The notes under the pieces are model-generated. The model was not told where the DNA came from. It searched no databases and saw only the letters and a list, made by a program, of their open reading frames with translations. A DNA stretch of 64,000 nt, taken from the NCBI RefSeq assembly GCF_016025255.1, contig NZ_CP065592.1, forward strand, positions 1,345,122 to 1,409,121, read 5' to 3'. This stretch comes from Sphingosinicella flava. GTDB taxonomy: Bacteria; Pseudomonadota; Alphaproteobacteria; Sphingomonadales; Sphingomonadaceae. Below are positions 3,868 to 35,060 of the stretch, piece by piece; the stretch's first letter is position 1, and each line of letters starts with the position of its first letter. A program made the translations under genes and the position numbers.

Positions 3868-4479
3868 TCATGCCTGTTTCAGCATCGAGGAGGCCGGCGC
3901 CATTTGTTCGTGCGCTATTCTCACAACTTCAACAAAGAAGGACAAGGCATCCCCATAAAGATCATCCTTGTAGAAAATCCATGTGTCACCCTCTTTTGTA
4001 CGCAAGCTGAAGCTGACAAGCTCATTTGGAGCAATATATCCATCAAGTCGCAGTGGATCAGCATGGATATATTCTATATTGCTCCAGTTAATGCTTTTAA
4101 CTGAACCATAATCGCTCAAAATCAAGCCTTGAGAATTAATGGATATAGCAGGCTGTTCCAAAATTCTTTTATAACGATTTCTAATACGGTTAACAAGAAT
4201 AAATGAAATTAATGCCCCTGCCGCTATAATATATAAACTTTCAAGAAAGCTCAGAAATTCAACCCAGTAGGCAATGTTAACAAGAATGGGCCAGCCGAGC
4301 CAATTTCTTCTCCGATTAGGTTTACTGTCAAATTGATCGGTGTAGTATATCGCTGTATTGATCTTGGAAGATTTCTTAATCTCTCGTGAGAAGCGTATTT
4401 GTGCAAGAAATATGGCAGTTTCTACTGAAAAGACGATAGCAAAAGATAACCAAAAAATTATCCGATCTTCTTCCATCAC
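3868..4479 (-). CDS. Hypothetical AT-rich membrane protein
   Basis: 203 residues, no recognised family. An N-terminal hydrophobic helix (about residues 7-26) is followed by a basic stretch. Two more hydrophobic helices (about residues 60-95) sit inside the WPILVNIAYWVEFLSF region, and a soluble C-terminal half of about 100 residues follows. A PH-like or YcxB-like sensor tail is conceivable but not shown. The start is ATG at 4479, with a second ATG one codon later. The base composition is much richer in A+T than the flanking ribosomal operon and cupin gene, which suggests recent acquisition. It is isolated, with no operon partner. Confidence 0.6.
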   Translation of the reverse strand: MMEEDRIIFWLSFAIVFSVETAIFLAQIRFSREIKKSSKINTAIYYTDQFDSKPNRRRNWLGWPILVNIAYWVEFLSFLESLYIIAAGALISFILVNRIRNRYKRILEQPAISINSQGLILSDYGSVKSINWSNIEYIHADPLRLDGYIAPNELVSFSLRTKEGDTWIFYKDDLYGDALSFFVEVVRIAHEQMAPASSMLKQA

Positions 4480-5675: not shown

Positions 5676-5779
5676 GACTTCTCTCCCATTATCGCGTAGC
5701 CCGGCGACAACGAGGGAAAGGCCGCGCCGTTCCGGCCGGAGGCTGGAGAAAATCCCGCCACCAAACCGGTTCGGCCTCG

Positions 5780-7177
5780 TCAGATGTGCAGCACGCGTCC
5801 GTAAGCGGCGAGCACGCTTTCGTGCATCATTTCCGACAGGGTCGGGTGCGGGAAAACGGTGTTCATCAGCTCCGCCTCGGTGAGCTCTCCGGTCTTGCCG
5901 ATCGTATAACCCTGGATCAGCTCGGTCACTTCCGCGCCGATCATATGGGCACCGAGCAATTCGCCGGTCTTGGCGTCGAACACGGTCTTGATGAAGCCGT
6001 CCGGCTCGCCGAGCGCGATCGCCTTGCCATTGCCGATGAAGGGGAAGTTGCCGACTTTCACTTCGTAACCGGCCTCGCGCGCCTTCTCCTCGGTGAGCCC
6101 GACGCTGGCGATCTGCGGGTGGCAATAGGTGCAGCCCGGAATATTCTTCGGGTCCATGGCGTGCGGATGCTTGCCGGCAATCGCCTCGGCCGCGATCACG
6201 CCTTCATGGCTGGCCTTGTGCGCGAGCCAGGGCGGCGCGGTCACATCGCCGATGGCGTAGAGGCCCTCGACATTGGTCCGGCAGGCGCCGTCCGTCACGA
6301 TGTGCCCGCGCTCCGCCTTCACGCCAAGCGTTTCAAGGCCGATATTTTCGGTGTTCGGCACGATGCCGATGGCGACAATGACGTGGCTGTAATCGCCCTC
6401 GACGATTCTGCCGTCCTTGCCCTTGATCGCGGCCTTCACGCCATTCGCGCCCACGTCGAGCTTCTCGACGCCCGCGCTGGTCATGATCGTCATGCCCTGC
6501 TTCTTCAGAGCCTTTTCGAGATGGGCGCTGATATCCTTGTCCTCGACCGGCACGATGCGGTCGAGCATTTCGACGACCGTCACCTCGGCGCCCATGTCGT
6601 TGTAGAAGCTCGCGAATTCGATCCCGATCGCGCCCGATCCGATGACCAGCAGCTTGGTCGGCATCTCCTTCGGCGTCATCGCGTGGCGATAGGTCCAGAC
6701 GCGGTTGCCGTCCGCTTTGGCAAAGGGCAGGTCGCGGGCACGGGCGCCGGTCGCGACGATGATGTTCTTGGCTTGGAGCTCGGTGGTCTTGCCGTCCTCA
6801 CCGGTGACGGTCAGCTTGCCCTTCCCGGTCAGCTTGCCGGTGCCCATGTGCACCGCGACCTTGTTCTTTTTCATGAGGCCGGTGACGCCCTTGTTGAGCT
6901 GGCTCGCCACCCCGCGCGAGCGCTTCACCACCGCTTCCAGATCCGCGCTGATCTTCTCGGCGGCAAGGCCGTAATCCTTGGCATGCTGCATGTAATGGAA
7001 GATCTCCGCCGAACGCAGCAGCGCCTTGGTCGGGATGCAGCCCCAGTTGAGGCAGATGCCGCCAAGCAACTCCCGCTCGACGATCGCGGTCTTGAGCCCC
7101 AATTGGCTCGCCCGGATCGCGGCCACATAGCCGCCGGGACCGGAGCCGAGAACGATAAGGTCGTAGGTTTCAGACAT
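5780..7177 (-). CDS. lpdA: Dihydrolipoyl dehydrogenase (E3), pyruvate dehydrogenase-linked copy
   Basis: Flavoprotein that reoxidises dihydrolipoamide with NAD+. 465 residues with start MSETYDLIVLGSGPGG at 7177, preceded by AGAAGG; the open frame upstream (MAASSKKAN) is not needed. Visible are the FAD-binding GSGPGGYVAA, the redox disulphide GGICLNWGCIPTKAL, the NAD-binding GSGAIGIEFASF and the C-terminal active-site His in HPTLSEMMHE. It is the last gene of the pdhC operon, so it most likely serves pyruvate dehydrogenase. A second E3 in the suc cluster (32150-33544) serves oxoglutarate dehydrogenase. Confidence 0.95.
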   Translation of the reverse strand: MSETYDLIVLGSGPGGYVAAIRASQLGLKTAIVERELLGGICLNWGCIPTKALLRSAEIFHYMQHAKDYGLAAEKISADLEAVVKRSRGVASQLNKGVTGLMKKNKVAVHMGTGKLTGKGKLTVTGEDGKTTELQAKNIIVATGARARDLPFAKADGNRVWTYRHAMTPKEMPTKLLVIGSGAIGIEFASFYNDMGAEVTVVEMLDRIVPVEDKDISAHLEKALKKQGMTIMTSAGVEKLDVGANGVKAAIKGKDGRIVEGDYSHVIVAIGIVPNTENIGLETLGVKAERGHIVTDGACRTNVEGLYAIGDVTAPPWLAHKASHEGVIAAEAIAGKHPHAMDPKNIPGCTYCHPQIASVGLTEEKAREAGYEVKVGNFPFIGNGKAIALGEPDGFIKTVFDAKTGELLGAHMIGAEVTELIQGYTIGKTGELTEAELMNTVFPHPTLSEMMHESVLAAYGRVLHI

Positions 7178-7203
7178 ATTTGCCTTCTTTGATGAAGCCG
7201 CCA

Positions 7204-7590
7204 TTAGAGGCCCAGCTGTCTTCTAATGATGGTGACGAATATCAGGCTTGGAATAGAGGTCGCCACAATTCCCAGAACGAGCGAATTTTCCAAACCCAGG
7301 AATGGGAATAGCGCGACTATGCTGCATGCAAGACCAAGAGGAATGAGCCAGGCAGCTTTACGGATATAGCGCGACGCCAGGAACATGGCGGCCATAGCCA
7401 TGCCACACGTAATTAACGATAGCGCAAAGCCTAAACCAAGCACTGCCCATGCGAAATCCTGGCGCTCGCTATAATTCATGCCATCGTCGCCTGGCGTCGT
7501 AGGCATGGTGTACGCGAAGTAGGCGCCCACGCTTGAAATCAGAATGCACCAACCAACAGTCAGCAAGATTGCTTTACGTTTGGTGCTCAA
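7204..7590 (-). CDS. Small four-helix membrane protein between thioesterase and lpdA
   Basis: 128 residues, no recognised family. Four hydrophobic segments are visible, at about residues 7-29, 48-70, 80-98 and 104-122. The start is TTG at 7590, whose codon overlaps the thioesterase stop (TTGA), a 4-nt coupling; the next Met would remove the first helix. It lies 26 nt upstream of lpdA. Base composition is visibly less GC-rich than pdhC and lpdA. It resembles in kind, not in sequence, the small membrane genes at 7990 and 33537, which also sit between E2 and E3 genes. Confidence 0.65.
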   Translation of the reverse strand: MSTKRKAILLTVGWCILISSVGAYFAYTMPTTPGDDGMNYSERQDFAWAVLGLGFALSLITCGMAMAAMFLASRYIRKAAWLIPLGLACSIVALFPFLGLENSLVLGIVATSIPSLIFVTIIRRQLGL

Positions 7591-7997
7591 GCGTCCGCCT
7601 CCACCAAGGGTGCAACCCGCCGTGGCTGACGATCCTCGCCCACGGCAACGAAGGTGAAGGTCGCTTGCGTTACCTTATAGGCATCGTCGCTGTGGCGGCC
7701 GCGGCGCCAGGCCTCGACGTCGATCTTCATGGATGTGCGGCCGACCGCGATCAGGCGCGCAAAGACAGACACTTCGTCGCCAACGAAAACCGGGCGGTGG
7801 AAGGCCATGCCCTCGACCGCGATCGTCACCGCACGGCCTCCGCTGTGCAGCGAAGCCACAGAGCCCGCGGCAAGGTCCATCTGCGACATAAGCCAGCCGC
7901 CGAAAATGTCGCCATATGGATTTGCGTCGGCGGGCATGGCGGTAACGCGGATAGCGGGCGCGCCTTGCGGCATGATTTCATCATGATGATTAGACAT
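7587..7997 (-). CDS. Acyl-CoA thioesterase, YciA-type hotdog fold
   Basis: 136 residues. The hotdog-thioesterase core is visible as NPYGDIFGGWLMSQMDLAAG, where the Asp of GGW..MD is the family's catalytic position. It is followed by VEGMAFHRPVFVGDEV and the RTSMKIDVEAW strand. Such enzymes hydrolyse short- to long-chain acyl-CoA, often acetyl-CoA-related substrates. It is embedded between pdhC and lpdA and overlaps both neighbouring small membrane genes by a few bases, so it is co-translated with the pyruvate dehydrogenase genes. A role in balancing the CoA or acyl-CoA pool is inference. Confidence 0.9.
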   Translation of the reverse strand: MSNHHDEIMPQGAPAIRVTAMPADANPYGDIFGGWLMSQMDLAAGSVASLHSGGRAVTIAVEGMAFHRPVFVGDEVSVFARLIAVGRTSMKIDVEAWRRGRHSDDAYKVTQATFTFVAVGEDRQPRRVAPLVEADA

Positions 7998-8391
7998 TGC
8001 CGGCTTTTAATTTTGATTTGGGGAAGAACAGCAGGCCTAACATAAATCCAATACAGCCGCCCGAAGTGGCGGCAAGAAACTCAAACCCTTCGAAGGTCAC
8101 GGCCATCAGCAATCCACCTATTACGGCACCGCCAAGTAACAGAGCGAAGATAGCAGGCAACCGATCAATGCCACATTTTCTTAGGAAAATTATTGCCGGA
8201 ACTCCTATCACAAGTGCTGGCAAGGTACCGAACATCAAGATAGTTACCGCCCAGCCTGCAAATATCAGTGGGTAAATTGGATCTTGGTGCATGATCACGC
8301 CTTTCAGCCCGACCAACACGCTGGCGAGCAGACATCCTAGCACCAAGGCTAATAGCCAATAGGAAATACCCTTTCCTATTTGGCGCGCCAT
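7990..8391 (-). CDS. Small membrane protein between pdhC and thioesterase
   Basis: 133 residues from ATG 8391 (MARQIGKGISYWLLALVLGC); a TTG two codons upstream overlaps the pdhC stop and could be used. Four hydrophobic segments lie at about 10-32, 40-66, 74-95 and 100-125, with glycine-rich faces (GGAVIGGLL, GGCIGFMLGLLF). No family is recognised. It starts 2 nt after the pdhC stop and its end overlaps the thioesterase start by 8 nt. The composition is AT-richer than pdhC. Function unknown. Confidence 0.65.
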   Translation of the reverse strand: MARQIGKGISYWLLALVLGCLLASVLVGLKGVIMHQDPIYPLIFAGWAVTILMFGTLPALVIGVPAIIFLRKCGIDRLPAIFALLLGGAVIGGLLMAVTFEGFEFLAATSGGCIGFMLGLLFFPKSKLKAGNV

Positions 8392-8393
8392 AT

Positions 8394-9713
8394 TCAAGCC
8401 AGCATCCCCAAGGGCGCTTCCACAAGGCGCTTGAAAGCGGCCATCAGCTCGGCACCTACCGCACCATCAATCGCACGATGGTCGAAGCTGCCGGTGGCGG
8501 TCATCACCGTGGCAACGGACAATGCATCATTCACCACGTACGGCCGTTTCTCGCCCGCGCCGACGGCCATGATCATGGCTTGGGGCGGGTTGATGACGGC
8601 ATCGAACTGCTTGATTCCGTACATGCCGAGGTTGGAGATGGAGGCGGTGCCGCCCTGATATTCGTGGGGCTGGAGCTTGCCGTCGCGGGCGCGCAAGGCG
8701 AGATCCTTGGCTTCCTGCGCGATTCTGGACAGCGGCTTGTTCGCGACATCGGTGATGACCGGGGTGATGAGCCCGCCCTCGATCGCCACCGCCATCGAGA
8801 TGTCGGCGCGGCTATACTTGATGAGGTTGTCGCCCGCGAAAGCGACATTGGCGTTCGGCACTTCGGTGAGCGCGACGCCTAGCGCCTTGATCAGGAGATC
8901 GTTGACCGACAGCTTGATGCCGCGCCCTTCCAGGCCCTTGTTGAGCTCGCCGCGCAGCTTCAGCAGTGCGTCGAGGTTGCAATCCACGGTGAGGTAGAAA
9001 TGCGGCACCGTCTGCTTCGATTCCGTCAGGCGGCGCGCGATCGTCTTGCGCATGTTGGAGAGCTTGATCGCCTCGCCAGGAATGTCGCCCGCAACCGGCA
9101 TCGCGGCCTGCGGCTGAGCGGTGGGTGCCTGGGCCGGCGCGGCTGGACGCGGGGCAAGGCCGCCCGCATTTTCGATATCGGCCTTCACGATCCGGCCGTT
9201 CGGGCCGGAACCGGTGATGCCGGATAGATCGATGCCCTTCTGCTCGGCAATGCGGCGGGCGAGCGGGCTGGCCTTTACGCGGTCGCCGCCCGCGCCCGGC
9301 TGCGGCTGGGCCTTGACAAGCGGCGCGTCGTCCTTGGGAGAGGCGCCATAGCCCTTTTCCTGCGGTTCTGGAGTCGGGGCCTTGGCAGGCTGACCGGCGC
9401 CCGTTTCGCCTGCATCCGTCGCGACCGGCTGCTTGGCGGCGGGAGCGGAAGCGGCAGCACCTGCGTCTTCGCCCTCTTCCGCGATCATCGCGATCACGGT
9501 GCCGACCTTCACGCCGTCCGTGCCTTCGGCAACCAGCAGCTTGGCGATCGTCCCTTCATCGACCGCCTCGAATTCCATCGTCGCCTTGTCCGTCTCGATC
9601 TCGGCAAGGAGATCGCCGGACTTTACGATGTCCCCTTCCTTCACCAGCCATTTGGCAAGCGTGCCTTCCTCCATGGTCGGGGACAGAGCGGGCATCTTCA
9701 GTTCGATGGGCAT
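8394..9713 (-). CDS. pdhC: Pyruvate dehydrogenase E2, dihydrolipoamide acetyltransferase
   Basis: 439 residues, start [20 protein letters not shown] at 9713. One lipoyl domain (about 1-80) carries the lipoylation Lys in [12 protein letters not shown] flexible Ala/Pro linker follows, then the E3-binding domain (about 150-185, [20 protein letters not shown]), a second linker, and the catalytic domain ending in [15 protein letters not shown] with the active-site His-Asp pair. It transfers acetyl groups from E1 to CoA. The genes for E1 alpha and beta, often directly upstream in alphaproteobacteria, are not here; a divergent stress-protein gene lies upstream. Confidence 0.95.
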
Positions 9714-9843
9714 AAGGCCGGTGCTTTCCTCTTGGGCGCTTCTCAAGCGCCGTCCAAACAGCAAGTCGGGGCTTTGGGTCAAGGGCAACGCTTGCGTCAA
9801 CCGCCAATATAGCGCAGCTTTCCGGGGAAAAGGGAGAGGCGCA

Positions 9844-10293
9844 TTGCGCACATATCTGGTGGTGATCGACGATAGCGCGGAATCCCGCGTGGCCTTGCGC
9901 TTCGCCGCCCGCCGCGCCGCAAGGACCGGAAGCGCGGTGGAAATCCTCGCCCTCATCGACCCGCCCGAATTCGTGCAATGGGGCGGCGTGCAGGCGGCGA
10001 TGGAAGAGGAGGCGCGGCTCCGCGCCGAAGCGATGGTGCTGGAGGCTTCGGGCGCGATCCTGGACGAAGCGGGGATCCAGCCCTCCGTCATCACCCGTCA
10101 GGGCGATCCAGTGAAGGTGATCGGCGAATTGCTGGCGGAACGGGAGGTCGCCGCCCTTGTCCTCGCGACATCGTCGAACGGGGGGCCCGGTCCGCTGGTC
10201 GCGCATTTCTCCAATGTCGCGGCGAGCCTCCCCTGCCCGCTGATGATCGTGCCGGGCGGCCTCAGCGAAGAGGCGCTGGACCGGATCAGCTAA
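9844..10293 (+). CDS. Universal stress protein (UspA) family, TTG start
   Basis: 149 residues. A TTG start at 9844 is chosen because GGGAGAGG lies just upstream and the UspA fold begins immediately ([20 protein letters not shown]). The ATP-binding signature region near the C-terminus reads [19 protein letters not shown] followed by [10 protein letters not shown], close to the usual G-x2-G-x9-G(S/T) pattern. The longer open frame upstream is antisense to pdhC and not real. It is monocistronic and divergent from pdhC (130 nt between starts), followed by a palindromic repeat. Confidence 0.85.
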
Positions 10294-32149: not shown

Positions 32150-33544
32150 TCAAATATGGATGGGCTTGCCGGTCACCGCCATCGCTGCTTCCTTCAGCGC
32201 TTCCGAATGGGTCGGATGCGCATGGCAAGTATAGGCGATGTCCTCGCTCGTCGCGCCGAATTCCATCGCCTGCGCGGCCTGGGCGATCATCGTGCCTGCG
32301 AGCGATGAGACGATGTGGACGCCGAGCACGCGGTCGGTCTTGGCGTCGGCGACGATCTTCACGAAACCGTCTGTGTCGTTGATCGCCTTGGCGCGGCTGT
32401 TCGCCATCATCGGGAACTTGCCGACCTTCACCTCGCCCTTTTCCTTCGCCTGCTCCTCGGTAAGGCCGACGCCGGCGATCTCCGGGTGAGTGTAGACGAC
32501 CGACGGGATCACATCATGGTTCACAATGCCGGTGAGGCCCGCGATATTCTCCGCCACCGCAATGCCTTCATCCTCAGCCTTGTGGGCCAGCATCGGGCCG
32601 GGGATCACGTCGCCGATCGCCCAAATGCCGGGCACCCCTGTCGCGAAATCGTGATCCGTCTCGATCTGTCCGCGATTGTTGACGGTCAAACCCGCTTTAT
32701 CGAGGCCAAGGCCGTCCGTATTGGGGCGGCGGCCGATGGAGACCAGCACGACATCCGCCTCGATCGTCTCGGCCGCGCCGCCGGCTGCAGGTTCCATGGT
32801 GACGGTCGCCTTGCCGCCATTCACCGTGACGCCAGTGACCTTGGTCGACGTCCGCAATTCGAAGCCCTGCTTCTTGAAAATCTTCGCCGCCTCCTTGCGG
32901 ACTTCGGCGTCCATGCCCGGCAGGATCTGGTCGACATATTCGACTACGGTCACCTTGGCGCCGAGCCGCTTCCACACCGATCCCAGCTCCAGTCCGATCA
33001 CCCCGCCGCCGATGACGACGAGATGCTCCGGCACCTTCGGCAGTTCGAGCGCACTGGTGGAATCGACGACCACTTCATGGTCGATTTCGACACCCGGCAG
33101 TGACATGACCGACGAACCGGTCGCGATCACGATATTCTTGGCACGAACGGTGCGGCCCGCGACCTCCACGGTGTCCTTACCGGTGAAGGTGGCGAGACCC
33201 TTCAGCCATTCGACCTTGTTCTTCTTGAACAGAAATTCGATGCCGCCAGTAAGGCCCGTCACGGCATCCGTGCGCTGCTTGTGCATGGCATCGAGGTCGA
33301 GGCTGACCTTCTCCGCCTTCACGCCATATTTGGCGAGCGCGCCCGAATTGGCTTCCGCGAACAATTCCGACGCATGGAGCAAGGCCTTCGAAGGAATACA
33401 GCCGACATTGAGGCAGGTGCCGCCCAGCGTCGCCCGGCTTTCCGCGCACGCCGTCTTGAGGCCCAGCTGCGCCGCCCGGATCGCCGCGACATAACCGCCC
33501 GGCCCCGCGCCGATCACCAGAACGTCGAAATCATAGTCAGCCAT
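32150..33544 (-). CDS. lpd: Dihydrolipoyl dehydrogenase (E3), oxoglutarate dehydrogenase-linked copy
   Basis: 464 residues with the FAD motif VIGAGPGGYVAAIRAAQLG, the redox disulphide GGTCLNVGCIPSKALL, the NAD motif IGGGVIGLELGSVW and the C-terminal HPTHSEALKE. It differs from the pdh-linked E3 around the disulphide (CLNVGC against CLNWGC). It ends the mdh-sucD-sucA-sucB cluster, so it most likely serves 2-oxoglutarate dehydrogenase. Its start overlaps the end of a small membrane-protein gene by 8 nt. Confidence 0.96.
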   Translation of the reverse strand: MADYDFDVLVIGAGPGGYVAAIRAAQLGLKTACAESRATLGGTCLNVGCIPSKALLHASELFAEANSGALAKYGVKAEKVSLDLDAMHKQRTDAVTGLTGGIEFLFKKNKVEWLKGLATFTGKDTVEVAGRTVRAKNIVIATGSSVMSLPGVEIDHEVVVDSTSALELPKVPEHLVVIGGGVIGLELGSVWKRLGAKVTVVEYVDQILPGMDAEVRKEAAKIFKKQGFELRTSTKVTGVTVNGGKATVTMEPAAGGAAETIEADVVLVSIGRRPNTDGLGLDKAGLTVNNRGQIETDHDFATGVPGIWAIGDVIPGPMLAHKAEDEGIAVAENIAGLTGIVNHDVIPSVVYTHPEIAGVGLTEEQAKEKGEVKVGKFPMMANSRAKAINDTDGFVKIVADAKTDRVLGVHIVSSLAGTMIAQAAQAMEFGATSEDIAYTCHAHPTHSEALKEAAMAVTGKPIHI

Positions 33545-33764
33545 TTTCTACCTCATGCGAGCGTTGCTTTGCTCTAGACTGTTCGTACGCGCGCCAAGAT
33601 TGTCGGCCTTCTATGCCCAGGACAAACATAAGCGCCACATAGAAAATCATAGGTATCATCACGTCGGAAACAGATTGGGCATTCCGAATAAAGAAAACCA
33701 AACCTCCAAAACCCAGCAATGATGCCAAGTATATATATCTCAGCGGTATAACCCGGCGGCGCAT
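33537..33764 (-). CDS. Small two-helix membrane protein between sucB and lpd
   Basis: 75 residues from ATG 33764, whose A is preceded by the sucB stop in the form TGATG. Two hydrophobic helices (about 9-27 and 35-53) are followed by a charged tail (QSWRAYEQSRAKQRSHEVEN). No family is recognised. The local base composition is AT-richer than sucB and lpd. It overlaps lpd by 8 nt. Position between the E2 and E3 genes parallels the small membrane genes of the pdh cluster. Confidence 0.65.
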   Translation of the reverse strand: MRRRVIPLRYIYLASLLGFGGLVFFIRNAQSVSDVMIPMIFYVALMFVLGIEGRQSWRAYEQSRAKQRSHEVENG

Positions 33765-35032
33765 CAAAGATCGATCAGCAACCGCGTCGGATCTTCCAGC
33801 GCTTCCTTCATGCGGACGAGGAAGGTCACCGCCTCGCGGCCGTCAACCAGGCGGTGGTCGTAGCTCAATGCCAGATACATCATCGGACGAACCACGATCT
33901 CGCCGTTCCGCACGACCGGCCGTTCCTCGATCCGGTGCATGCCGAGAACCGCCGATTGCGGCGGGTTGATGATCGGGGTCGACAGGAGCGAGCCGAACAC
34001 GCCGCCATTGGAGATGGTGAAGGTGCCGCCCTTCATATCGTCCATGCTGAGCGTGCCGTCTTTGGCGCGACGCCCAAAATCGGCGATCGTCTTTTCGATC
34101 TCGGCAAAACTCATCTTGTCGGCGTTGCGGATCACCGGAACGACGAGGCCGTTCGGCGCCGACACCGCGACCGACACGTCGAGATAGTCGTGATAGACGA
34201 TCTCGTCGCCCTCGATATAGGCGTTGACGGAAGGCACGTCGCGGGCAGCCAAGGCCGCCGCCTTCACGAAGAAGCCCATGAAGCCGAGGCGGATCTGGTG
34301 CTTCTTTTCGAACAGGTCCTTATATTTGGCCCGCGCCTCCATGACCGCGCTCATGTCGAGGTCGTTGAAGGTGGTGAGAAGCGCGGCGGTATTCTGCGCT
34401 TCCTTCAGCCGCTTGGCGATGGTCTGGCGCAGGCGCGTCATGCGGACGCGCTCTTCCTTGCGCTCTTGTGTTCCTGCGGAAGCAGGAACCCAGTCCTGCG
34501 CCGAAGTCTGGGCTCCTGCTTTCGCAGGAGCACTCGGTGCGTTCTGCGCGGCAGCCAACACGTCGTCCTTCGTCAAGCGCCCGTCCTTGCCTGTGCCCTT
34601 GATCCTCGACGGGTCGAGGCCATGCTCGAGCACCAGGCGGCGCACGGCGGGAGACAGGGTGAGGCTGCTGTCCTGCGACGCCTCGGCAGCGTCGCGAAGC
34701 TCGATATTTTCTCCGGCACCTTGCGGGTTCACCGGCGTCGCGGCGACTTCCGGCGCCTTCGCCGCGGCTTGCGGCTGCGCGGAGGCAGCACCCGAACCAG
34801 CCTCGATCCGGGCGATCAGCGCGCCGACCTGCACGGTATCCCCTTCGGCAACCACGGGCTCACCCATCGTGCCGGCCACCGGCGAAGGCACTTCGACCGC
34901 GACCTTGTCGGTCTCCAGGCTGGCGATCGGCTCGTCGGCCTTCACGGGATCGCCGGGCTTCTTCAGCCATTGGCCCAAGGTGGCTTCGGTGATCGATTCG
35001 CCCAGAGTGGGGACGGTTACGTCGGTCGCCAT
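33764..35032 (-). CDS. sucB: 2-Oxoglutarate dehydrogenase E2, dihydrolipoamide succinyltransferase
   Basis: 422 residues from [20 protein letters not shown] at 35032 with AAGAGG upstream. Lipoyl domain (1-75, Lys in [12 protein letters not shown]), linker, E3-binding domain (about 118-155, [20 protein letters not shown]), second linker (about 160-195), catalytic domain ending with [13 protein letters not shown]. The second linker contains residues about 167-189 (PAKAGAQ...WVPASAGTQ), which are the translation of a REP-like palindromic repeat sitting in frame (34468-34533). The repeat is 66 bp, a multiple of three, and leaves the reading frame open. Confidence 0.96.
34468..34533. repeat. REP-like inverted hairpin pair, copy 4, in frame inside sucB
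   Basis: Two arms, TTCCTGC-GGAA-GCAGGAA and CTCCTGC-TTTC-GCAGGAG, 66 bp in total, exactly 22 codons. It adds no stop in the sucB frame and is translated into an Ala/Gly/Ser/Gln-rich stretch placed in the unstructured linker before the catalytic domain. Confidence 0.92.
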
Positions 35033-35060
35033 TCTCATTGCCTCTTTTCAGTGCCAAAAC

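Follow-up and report, generated by a model that had tools for sequence, protein, structure and literature searches.

AT-rich ORFans and the insertion of genes into conserved operons are general phenomena. The genes described here resemble such insertions in being short, AT-rich and lineage-specific, and in lying with overlapping ends among neighbours that are read in one direction; they differ in that one slot in central metabolism has been struck repeatedly, often by membrane proteins. A comparable arrangement is the pdhB-orf2-lpd cluster of Zymomonas mobilis, with an extra ORF between the E2 and E3 genes of pyruvate dehydrogenase (PDH) and the E1 genes elsewhere. It may differ from our locus in that orf2 could be the thioesterase, not a membrane protein. 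In the literature, judged by titles and abstract openings, we found nothing on membrane genes in the E2-E3 gap.

We analysed a window of 64,000 nucleotides, the whole stretch of DNA under study, which lies within the 2.42-Mb, one-contig genome of Sphingosinicella flava. The original prediction, that two four-helix membrane proteins and a thioesterase lie between pdhC and lpdA, was borne out and proved right in nearly all details. Transmembrane (TM) segments were called with a simple hydropathy window. The genes E2, P3, THI, P1 and E3 follow one another in this order on the minus strand, and a second dehydrogenase cluster, that of 2-oxoglutarate dehydrogenase, contains a further small membrane gene, P4:

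8394..9713, minus strand: E2, dihydrolipoamide acetyltransferase of pyruvate dehydrogenase (pdhC; Pfam PF00198, PF00364, PF02817; NCBIfam TIGR01349)
7990..8397, minus strand: P3, AT-rich 4-TM protein of 135 aa with 4 hydrophobic segments
7587..7997, minus strand: THI, hotdog (4HBT) acyl-CoA thioesterase, YciA-like (PF03061)
7204..7590, minus strand: P1, AT-rich 4-TM ORFan of 128 aa with 4 hydrophobic segments, above no Pfam cutoff
5780..7177, minus strand: E3, dihydrolipoyl dehydrogenase of pyruvate dehydrogenase (lpdA; TIGR01350)
33764..35038, minus strand: sucB, E2 of 2-oxoglutarate dehydrogenase (TIGR01347, NF004309)
33537..33767, minus strand: P4, AT-rich 2-TM ORFan of 76 aa between sucB and lpd
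32150..33544, minus strand: lpd, the E3 ORF beside sucB, with strong matches in family genomes

E2 scores 527 bits for TIGR01349 (cutoff 445) and E3 576 bits for TIGR01350 (cutoff 409). The E2 start at 9713 was placed by the onset of homology in many relatives. The E3 ORF is open from 7204, and homology in most relatives starts near residue 10, which makes 7177 the probable E3 start; it lies about 26 bases past the end of P1 and without contact to it. At the other junctions, E2 and P3 overlap by 4 bases (TTGA; an alternative P3 ATG lies at 8391), P3 and THI by 8, and THI and P1 by 4 (TTGA), with the P1 start on the THI stop. The overlapping or touching ends that had been claimed throughout are thus present everywhere except, probably, between P1 and E3. 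Such overlaps fit translational coupling. A consensus scan of 5700-10000 for promoters and terminators returned none, including in front of E2, and fewer than in shuffles; it therefore has no bearing on co-transcription. No E1-like ORF adjoins E2 and E3 in the ORF list, judged by eye and not by a family search, and what had been called a pdh operon is therefore better described as an E2-E3 cluster. THI carries the 4HBT hotdog domain (PF03061, E = 1.7e-19, 70.3 bits, cutoff 20.6) as do the YciA thioesterases (PF03061, NF007970), from which it differs by falling under the NF007970 equivalog cutoff (122.8 versus 162 bits) and by its linkage to PDH genes.

The lower GC that had been noticed for the membrane genes is evident: P3, P1 and P4 have values of 0.48, 0.52 and 0.47 against 0.635 for the window, and GC3 is 0.51 in P3 and 0.58 in P1, with 0.72-0.86 in THI, E2 and E3. 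Four ORFs of the window combine a length of at least 60 aa with a GC below 0.57 and at least two TM segments, namely P1, P3, P4 and an ORF at 3868-4479. A sample of 19 stretches of 20 kb, which represents 16% of the remaining genome (380 kb; ORFs of 55-260 aa), contained one AT-rich multi-TM ORF (L201, 18979-19380, 133 aa, 4 TM). The two E2-E3 gaps hold three of the five AT-rich multi-TM ORFs in these 444 kb, a comparison that is post hoc because the finding was chosen for looking striking. The ORF at 3868-4479 (minus strand, 203 aa, two TM) has a GC of 0.39, lower than any other listed window ORF of 60 aa or more, and weakly matches the NCBIfam family STM3941_fam (E = 0.009, under cutoff); by eye, a 188-aa ORF at 7883-8449 of locus L237 resembles it.

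Among the matches listed, the best named one for E3 comes from Sphingomonas sp. AOB5 (90% identity), and the nearest relative is genome G019, with E3 94-95%, E2 92% and THI 81% identical. Its PDH locus reads E2-THI-E3 without a membrane gene, and its sucB-lpd spacer consists of 102 bases without P4. Since G019 has THI and lacks P1, P3 and P4, the thioesterase is probably the older resident of the slot, and the three membrane genes would most simply be gains in the host lineage, with loss in the sister as the less simple alternative. To place this difference in a wider context, we surveyed the best 80 named E3 loci and the first 100 further places from family genomes in the E3 ranking, which left 170 non-redundant PDH loci after 10 duplicates were dropped, 167 of them with E2 upstream. 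THI has a match in the gap of 111 of the 170 loci and is the usual resident of the slot. By eye, four Novosphingobium loci (L065, L076, L080, L084) have a second thioesterase-like ORF beside THI, apparently through tandem duplication. DUF559 genes also occur in the gap, in L020 (6595-7020, Pfam) and, by eye, in L019, L028, L031 and L040.

The PDH slot is a hotspot for membrane genes, and the sucB-lpd slot is not. Counting co-directional ORFs of at least 45 aa within the gap that have at least two TM segments, we found a membrane ORF in 42 of 167 PDH slots versus 0 of 68 sucB-lpd slots (from 69 relatives, of which one gave no sucB match; Fisher p = 1.2e-7), and, where the slot offers at least 200 bp of room, in 41/93 versus 0/24 (p = 7.7e-6; PDH side counted from a set with ORFs of at least 55 aa); both tests count every locus as an independent case although the species are related. 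The other 125 of the 167 PDH slots are without a small multi-pass ORF. We counted 14 AT-rich TM ORFs (GC at least 5 points under that of the locus) across 100.5 kb of slot and 16 across 1.93 Mb outside, where several resemble antisense artefacts and were kept in the count; in another count, one of five 'outside' ORFs (L081) lies directly upstream of E3 in an E2-less locus. Roomy sucB-lpd gaps carry GIY-YIG and other ORFs instead of membrane ORFs. A GIY-YIG gene lies between sucB and lpd in L162 (1664-1954, PF01541), and small GIY-YIG-like genes were seen by eye in the same gap of L129, L138, L143, L149, L158, L185 and L192. It had been proposed that absence from sister species together with random positions would mark neutral insertions; P1, P3 and P4 are indeed absent from the sister genome, but the positions of membrane ORFs are non-random (42/167 versus 0/68).

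P4 overlaps sucB by 4 bases and lpd by 8. Strong matches to the lpd gene (E<=1e-150) came from 110 of 119 family genomes, and its product is about 42% identical to the PDH E3. A gene similar to the PDH inserts had been reported at this position; there is a small membrane gene, but it is smaller than P1 and P3, has two TM segments and shows no evident sequence relation to either by eye. A search of 296 family genomes gave its own hit and three weak ones (E 6e-4 to 0.01), and no convincing ortholog of P4 among them. Among the genomes examined, the parallel between the two clusters is peculiar to this one.

P1 gave weak matches in single-sequence searches in 22 of 297 other family genomes (best E = 1.1e-4), with 17 of the 25 matching rows falling within ORFs of 238 aa or longer; P3 matched in 3 of 297 other family genomes (best E = 0.0026). 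Neither had a tblastn match at E<=1e-3 in any of the 170 PDH loci, a hit at E<=0.01 among plasmids and phages, or a match among viral contigs. P1, P3 and P4 exceeded no Pfam or NCBIfam cutoff (lowest E 0.015; P1 was without any NCBIfam match) and had no significant match in PHROGs and PADLOC (lowest E 0.07). The AlphaFold2 model of P1, built from P1 alone, reached a pLDDT of 66.5 and was judged too weak for structure search. That of P3, from a 26-row alignment, has four helices (pLDDT 83); Foldseek returned nothing at E<=0.001 (best E = 0.85), which leaves room for a fold that is not listed, and a search of PDB sequences with the A2 profile gave no confident relative (best E = 0.17). P3 has a weak four-helix similarity to FtsX and to NDUFA11-like subunits of complex I, but the VIA-align Z of at most 7.1 is within the tool's range for unrelated helical bundles.

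P3 does have relatives in an undescribed 4-TM family, which we call F2 and first noticed among AT-rich slot ORFs. With ten slot ORFs chosen by eye as seeds, leave-one-out searches among 11,331 ORFs recovered seven at E<=2.4e-4, two marginally (0.12, 0.27) and lost L056. A narrower first profile placed P3 at E = 1.7; a 24-sequence profile built without P3 or L056 found P3 as its top non-seed hit (E = 2.3e-4, about 13,400 ORFs), with L056 ranking next (E = 0.0025). P65, G92 and G111 of P3 fall into invariant or near-invariant F2 columns. Leu118 stands in the last helix at the column of a near-invariant Trp, present in at least 90% of F2 rows, and we therefore refer to P3 as a divergent relative of F2, not as a typical member. 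We also considered P1 and P3 as one family and rejected this; P1 is absent among the 69 best F2-profile hits listed (to E = 12), in agreement with the original prediction that the two are unrelated.

F2 is centred on Sphingomonadaceae and patchy. A whole-genome search with nine seeds picked up 29 of 249 family genomes (E<=0.01), and the profile including P3 matched 25 of 149 at E<=0.001, mostly in single copy and in the host genome P3 only. In a class-level sample of 190 genomes, seven had a match; apart from the host genome itself, the six matches were all weak. In about a dozen relatives an F2 gene occupies the PDH slot (beyond the seeds, L322 and L367), in both the E2-THI and the THI-E3 position, and these slot genes are 18-31% identical to the reference member L265. 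Elsewhere, with Pfam-confirmed neighbours, F2 genes follow coproporphyrinogen oxidase/hemF (L339, L366), MarR-type regulators (L358, L360), glycine dehydrogenase (gcvPB, L325) and a TauD-type gene (L364), or lie near IF-3/infC (L329, opposite strand) and DNA polymerase III beta/dnaN (L323). With six kinds of non-PDH neighbours, F2 is thus not specific to the PDH complex. Counting sites called partly by eye, F2 recurs at hemF (L339, L366, L370), at MarR-type genes (L333, L341, L358, L360) and at infC (L324, L326, L329), which suggests that further recurrent sites for the family exist. Compared with the DNA around them, slot F2 genes deviate further towards AT (-0.099, n = 12) than F2 genes at other sites (-0.028, n = 19; p = 3.3e-4; non-slot L366, L370 and weaker hits left out). 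Because the seeds come from slots, the slot share of F2 is biased, and this comparison is so in part.

The membrane genes of the slot are diverse, and the AT-rich ones are replaced within genera. Lenient clustering sorted the 48 slot TM ORFs into 13 sequence groups, which link some 2-TM and larger ORFs that are possibly non-homologous. In many Sphingomonas loci a 2-TM family separates E2 from THI; a second 2-TM family precedes E3 (L077, L232, L260, L269, L271). These 2-TM residents have a GC3 of 0.73-0.92, near that of the host, and dN < dS in all eight pairs tested, and some slot genes therefore matter. We rejected low GC as a mere by-product of hydrophobic codons; the 2-TM residents of the same slot keep their near-host GC3. 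The AT-rich inserts mostly have 3-4 TM segments, and GC3 is 0.37-0.67 in the ten slot F2 members, with 0.43-0.90 in the E3 genes of their loci. The 3-4-TM slot ORFs of L015, L031, L066, L224 and L314 have a near-host GC. Within single genera, E3 is conserved and inserts are not: L263 and L265 share 92% identity in E3 and 28% in the inserts, and the two Qipengyuania loci L056 and L078 (the latter from Qipengyuania citrea H150) 86% and 26%. In L226 and L230, E3 is 98% identical and the inserts are without meaningful alignment; L030, of the same genus, has 23 bases in the slot and no insert. Two loci (L066, 5686-6950; L270, 5159-6488) carry a pair of ORFs between THI and E3, one with 4 TM segments (157-158 aa) and one with 7 (283-291 aa). 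A 4-base NTGA overlap with the upstream stop, found in 10 of the 48 slot ORFs, is suggestive and not proof of coupling, since the ORF caller picks the most upstream start and any TGA after A, G or T offers one.

The absence of P1, P3 and P4 from G019, the missing matches of P1 and P3 in the loci and element collections searched, their base composition, the turnover of inserts and the dispersal of F2 lead us to read the PDH E2-E3 gap as a permissive operon slot that repeatedly acquires AT-rich membrane ORFans, with P1 and P3 as passengers, at a probability of roughly 60%. The gap in Sphingomonadaceae would be a permissive site within a co-transcribed, translationally coupled cluster, with a YciA-like thioesterase as its usual resident and, in certain lineages, small conserved 2-TM genes beside it. 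In addition, membrane ORFans of AT-rich composition, chiefly with 3-4 TM segments, may be gained and lost again and again. P3 would be such an ORFan, related to a dispersed 4-TM family that adjoins many kinds of housekeeping genes, P1 another, and P4 an independent, genome-specific case at sucB-lpd. Coupling to an upstream stop codon could provide expression without an own promoter while the downstream gene, E3, is still translated, and could hence explain the persistence of the inserts. The original prediction had offered tethering of a complex to the membrane or a tolerant landing site, and the latter is the better-fitting half of this suggestion.

A merely tolerant site, however, should accept any kind of gene, and the roomy slots (41/93 versus 0/24) make tolerance alone insufficient. 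Because tolerance is unable to explain the contrast between the PDH and sucB-lpd slots, a second reading stays alive, in which the inserts are functional membrane adaptors: unrelated families would have the same role in different lineages and attach E2/E3 or THI to the inner membrane. The 13 leniently clustered groups in the PDH slot against none in 68 sucB-lpd slots would agree with such a role, as would the conserved 2-TM residents with their GC3 near that of the host and the many slot-ORF ends that overlap or almost touch. Yet the family of P3 also adjoins unrelated genes, the nearest relative listed lacks P1 and P3, 125 of 167 slots do without an ORF of two or more TM segments, and many inserts have no detectable common sequence, even where E3 is 98% identical. 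These points weaken the tethering idea, and we consider adaptors an unlikely alternative. That the gap is under recurrent selection for a small polytopic membrane protein, recruited from unrelated, fast-replaced families because it holds the E2/E3 core or its thioesterase in place at the inner membrane, or acts there as its regulator, seems improbable to us.

Survivorship could also produce the pattern: any short gene may arise or land in the gap and only hydrophobic ORFs prove harmless or selectable, AT-rich DNA encoding TM segments by default, so that the inserts would be born de novo or nearly so. The AT-rich composition, the fast turnover of inserts and the weak relatives of P1 and P4 are what such a process would leave behind. 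P3, however, matches a real homologous family (seven of ten seeds at E<=2.4e-4, P3 at 2.3e-4), which makes its de novo birth unlikely, and the lack of membrane ORFs in roomy sucB-lpd slots is left unexplained; we give this explanation little credence. One purpose for the membrane inserts of both 2-oxoacid dehydrogenase clusters, as originally suggested, may draw on the fact that P1, P3 and P4 account for three of the window's four AT-rich multi-TM ORFs, but is hardly credible given 0 of 68 relatives with an ORF of at least two TM segments between sucB and lpd and the weak matches, none a convincing ortholog, of P4 in 296 family genomes; on the same 0/68, we also rejected the sucB-lpd insert as a parallel class. 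P1 and P3 might also be old inhabitants of the slot that the sister and other genomes have since lost; in favour of this, some dozen relatives have an F2 gene in the E2-E3 gap. These F2 genes, however, occupy two different positions, are AT-rich and 18-31% identical to L265, and F2 is patchy (25/149 genomes), so that we regard this reading as very improbable.

Our results reveal a hotspot within a core-metabolism cluster, in which membrane genes vary among close relatives while the flanking E3 is 86-98% identical. They also describe F2, a previously undescribed 4-TM family that recurs in the PDH slot and beside other housekeeping genes. The difference in content between PDH and sucB-lpd slots makes it testable whether the slot content is selected or merely tolerated, and it also bears on the role of small AT-rich membrane ORFans once they are coupled to an essential gene.
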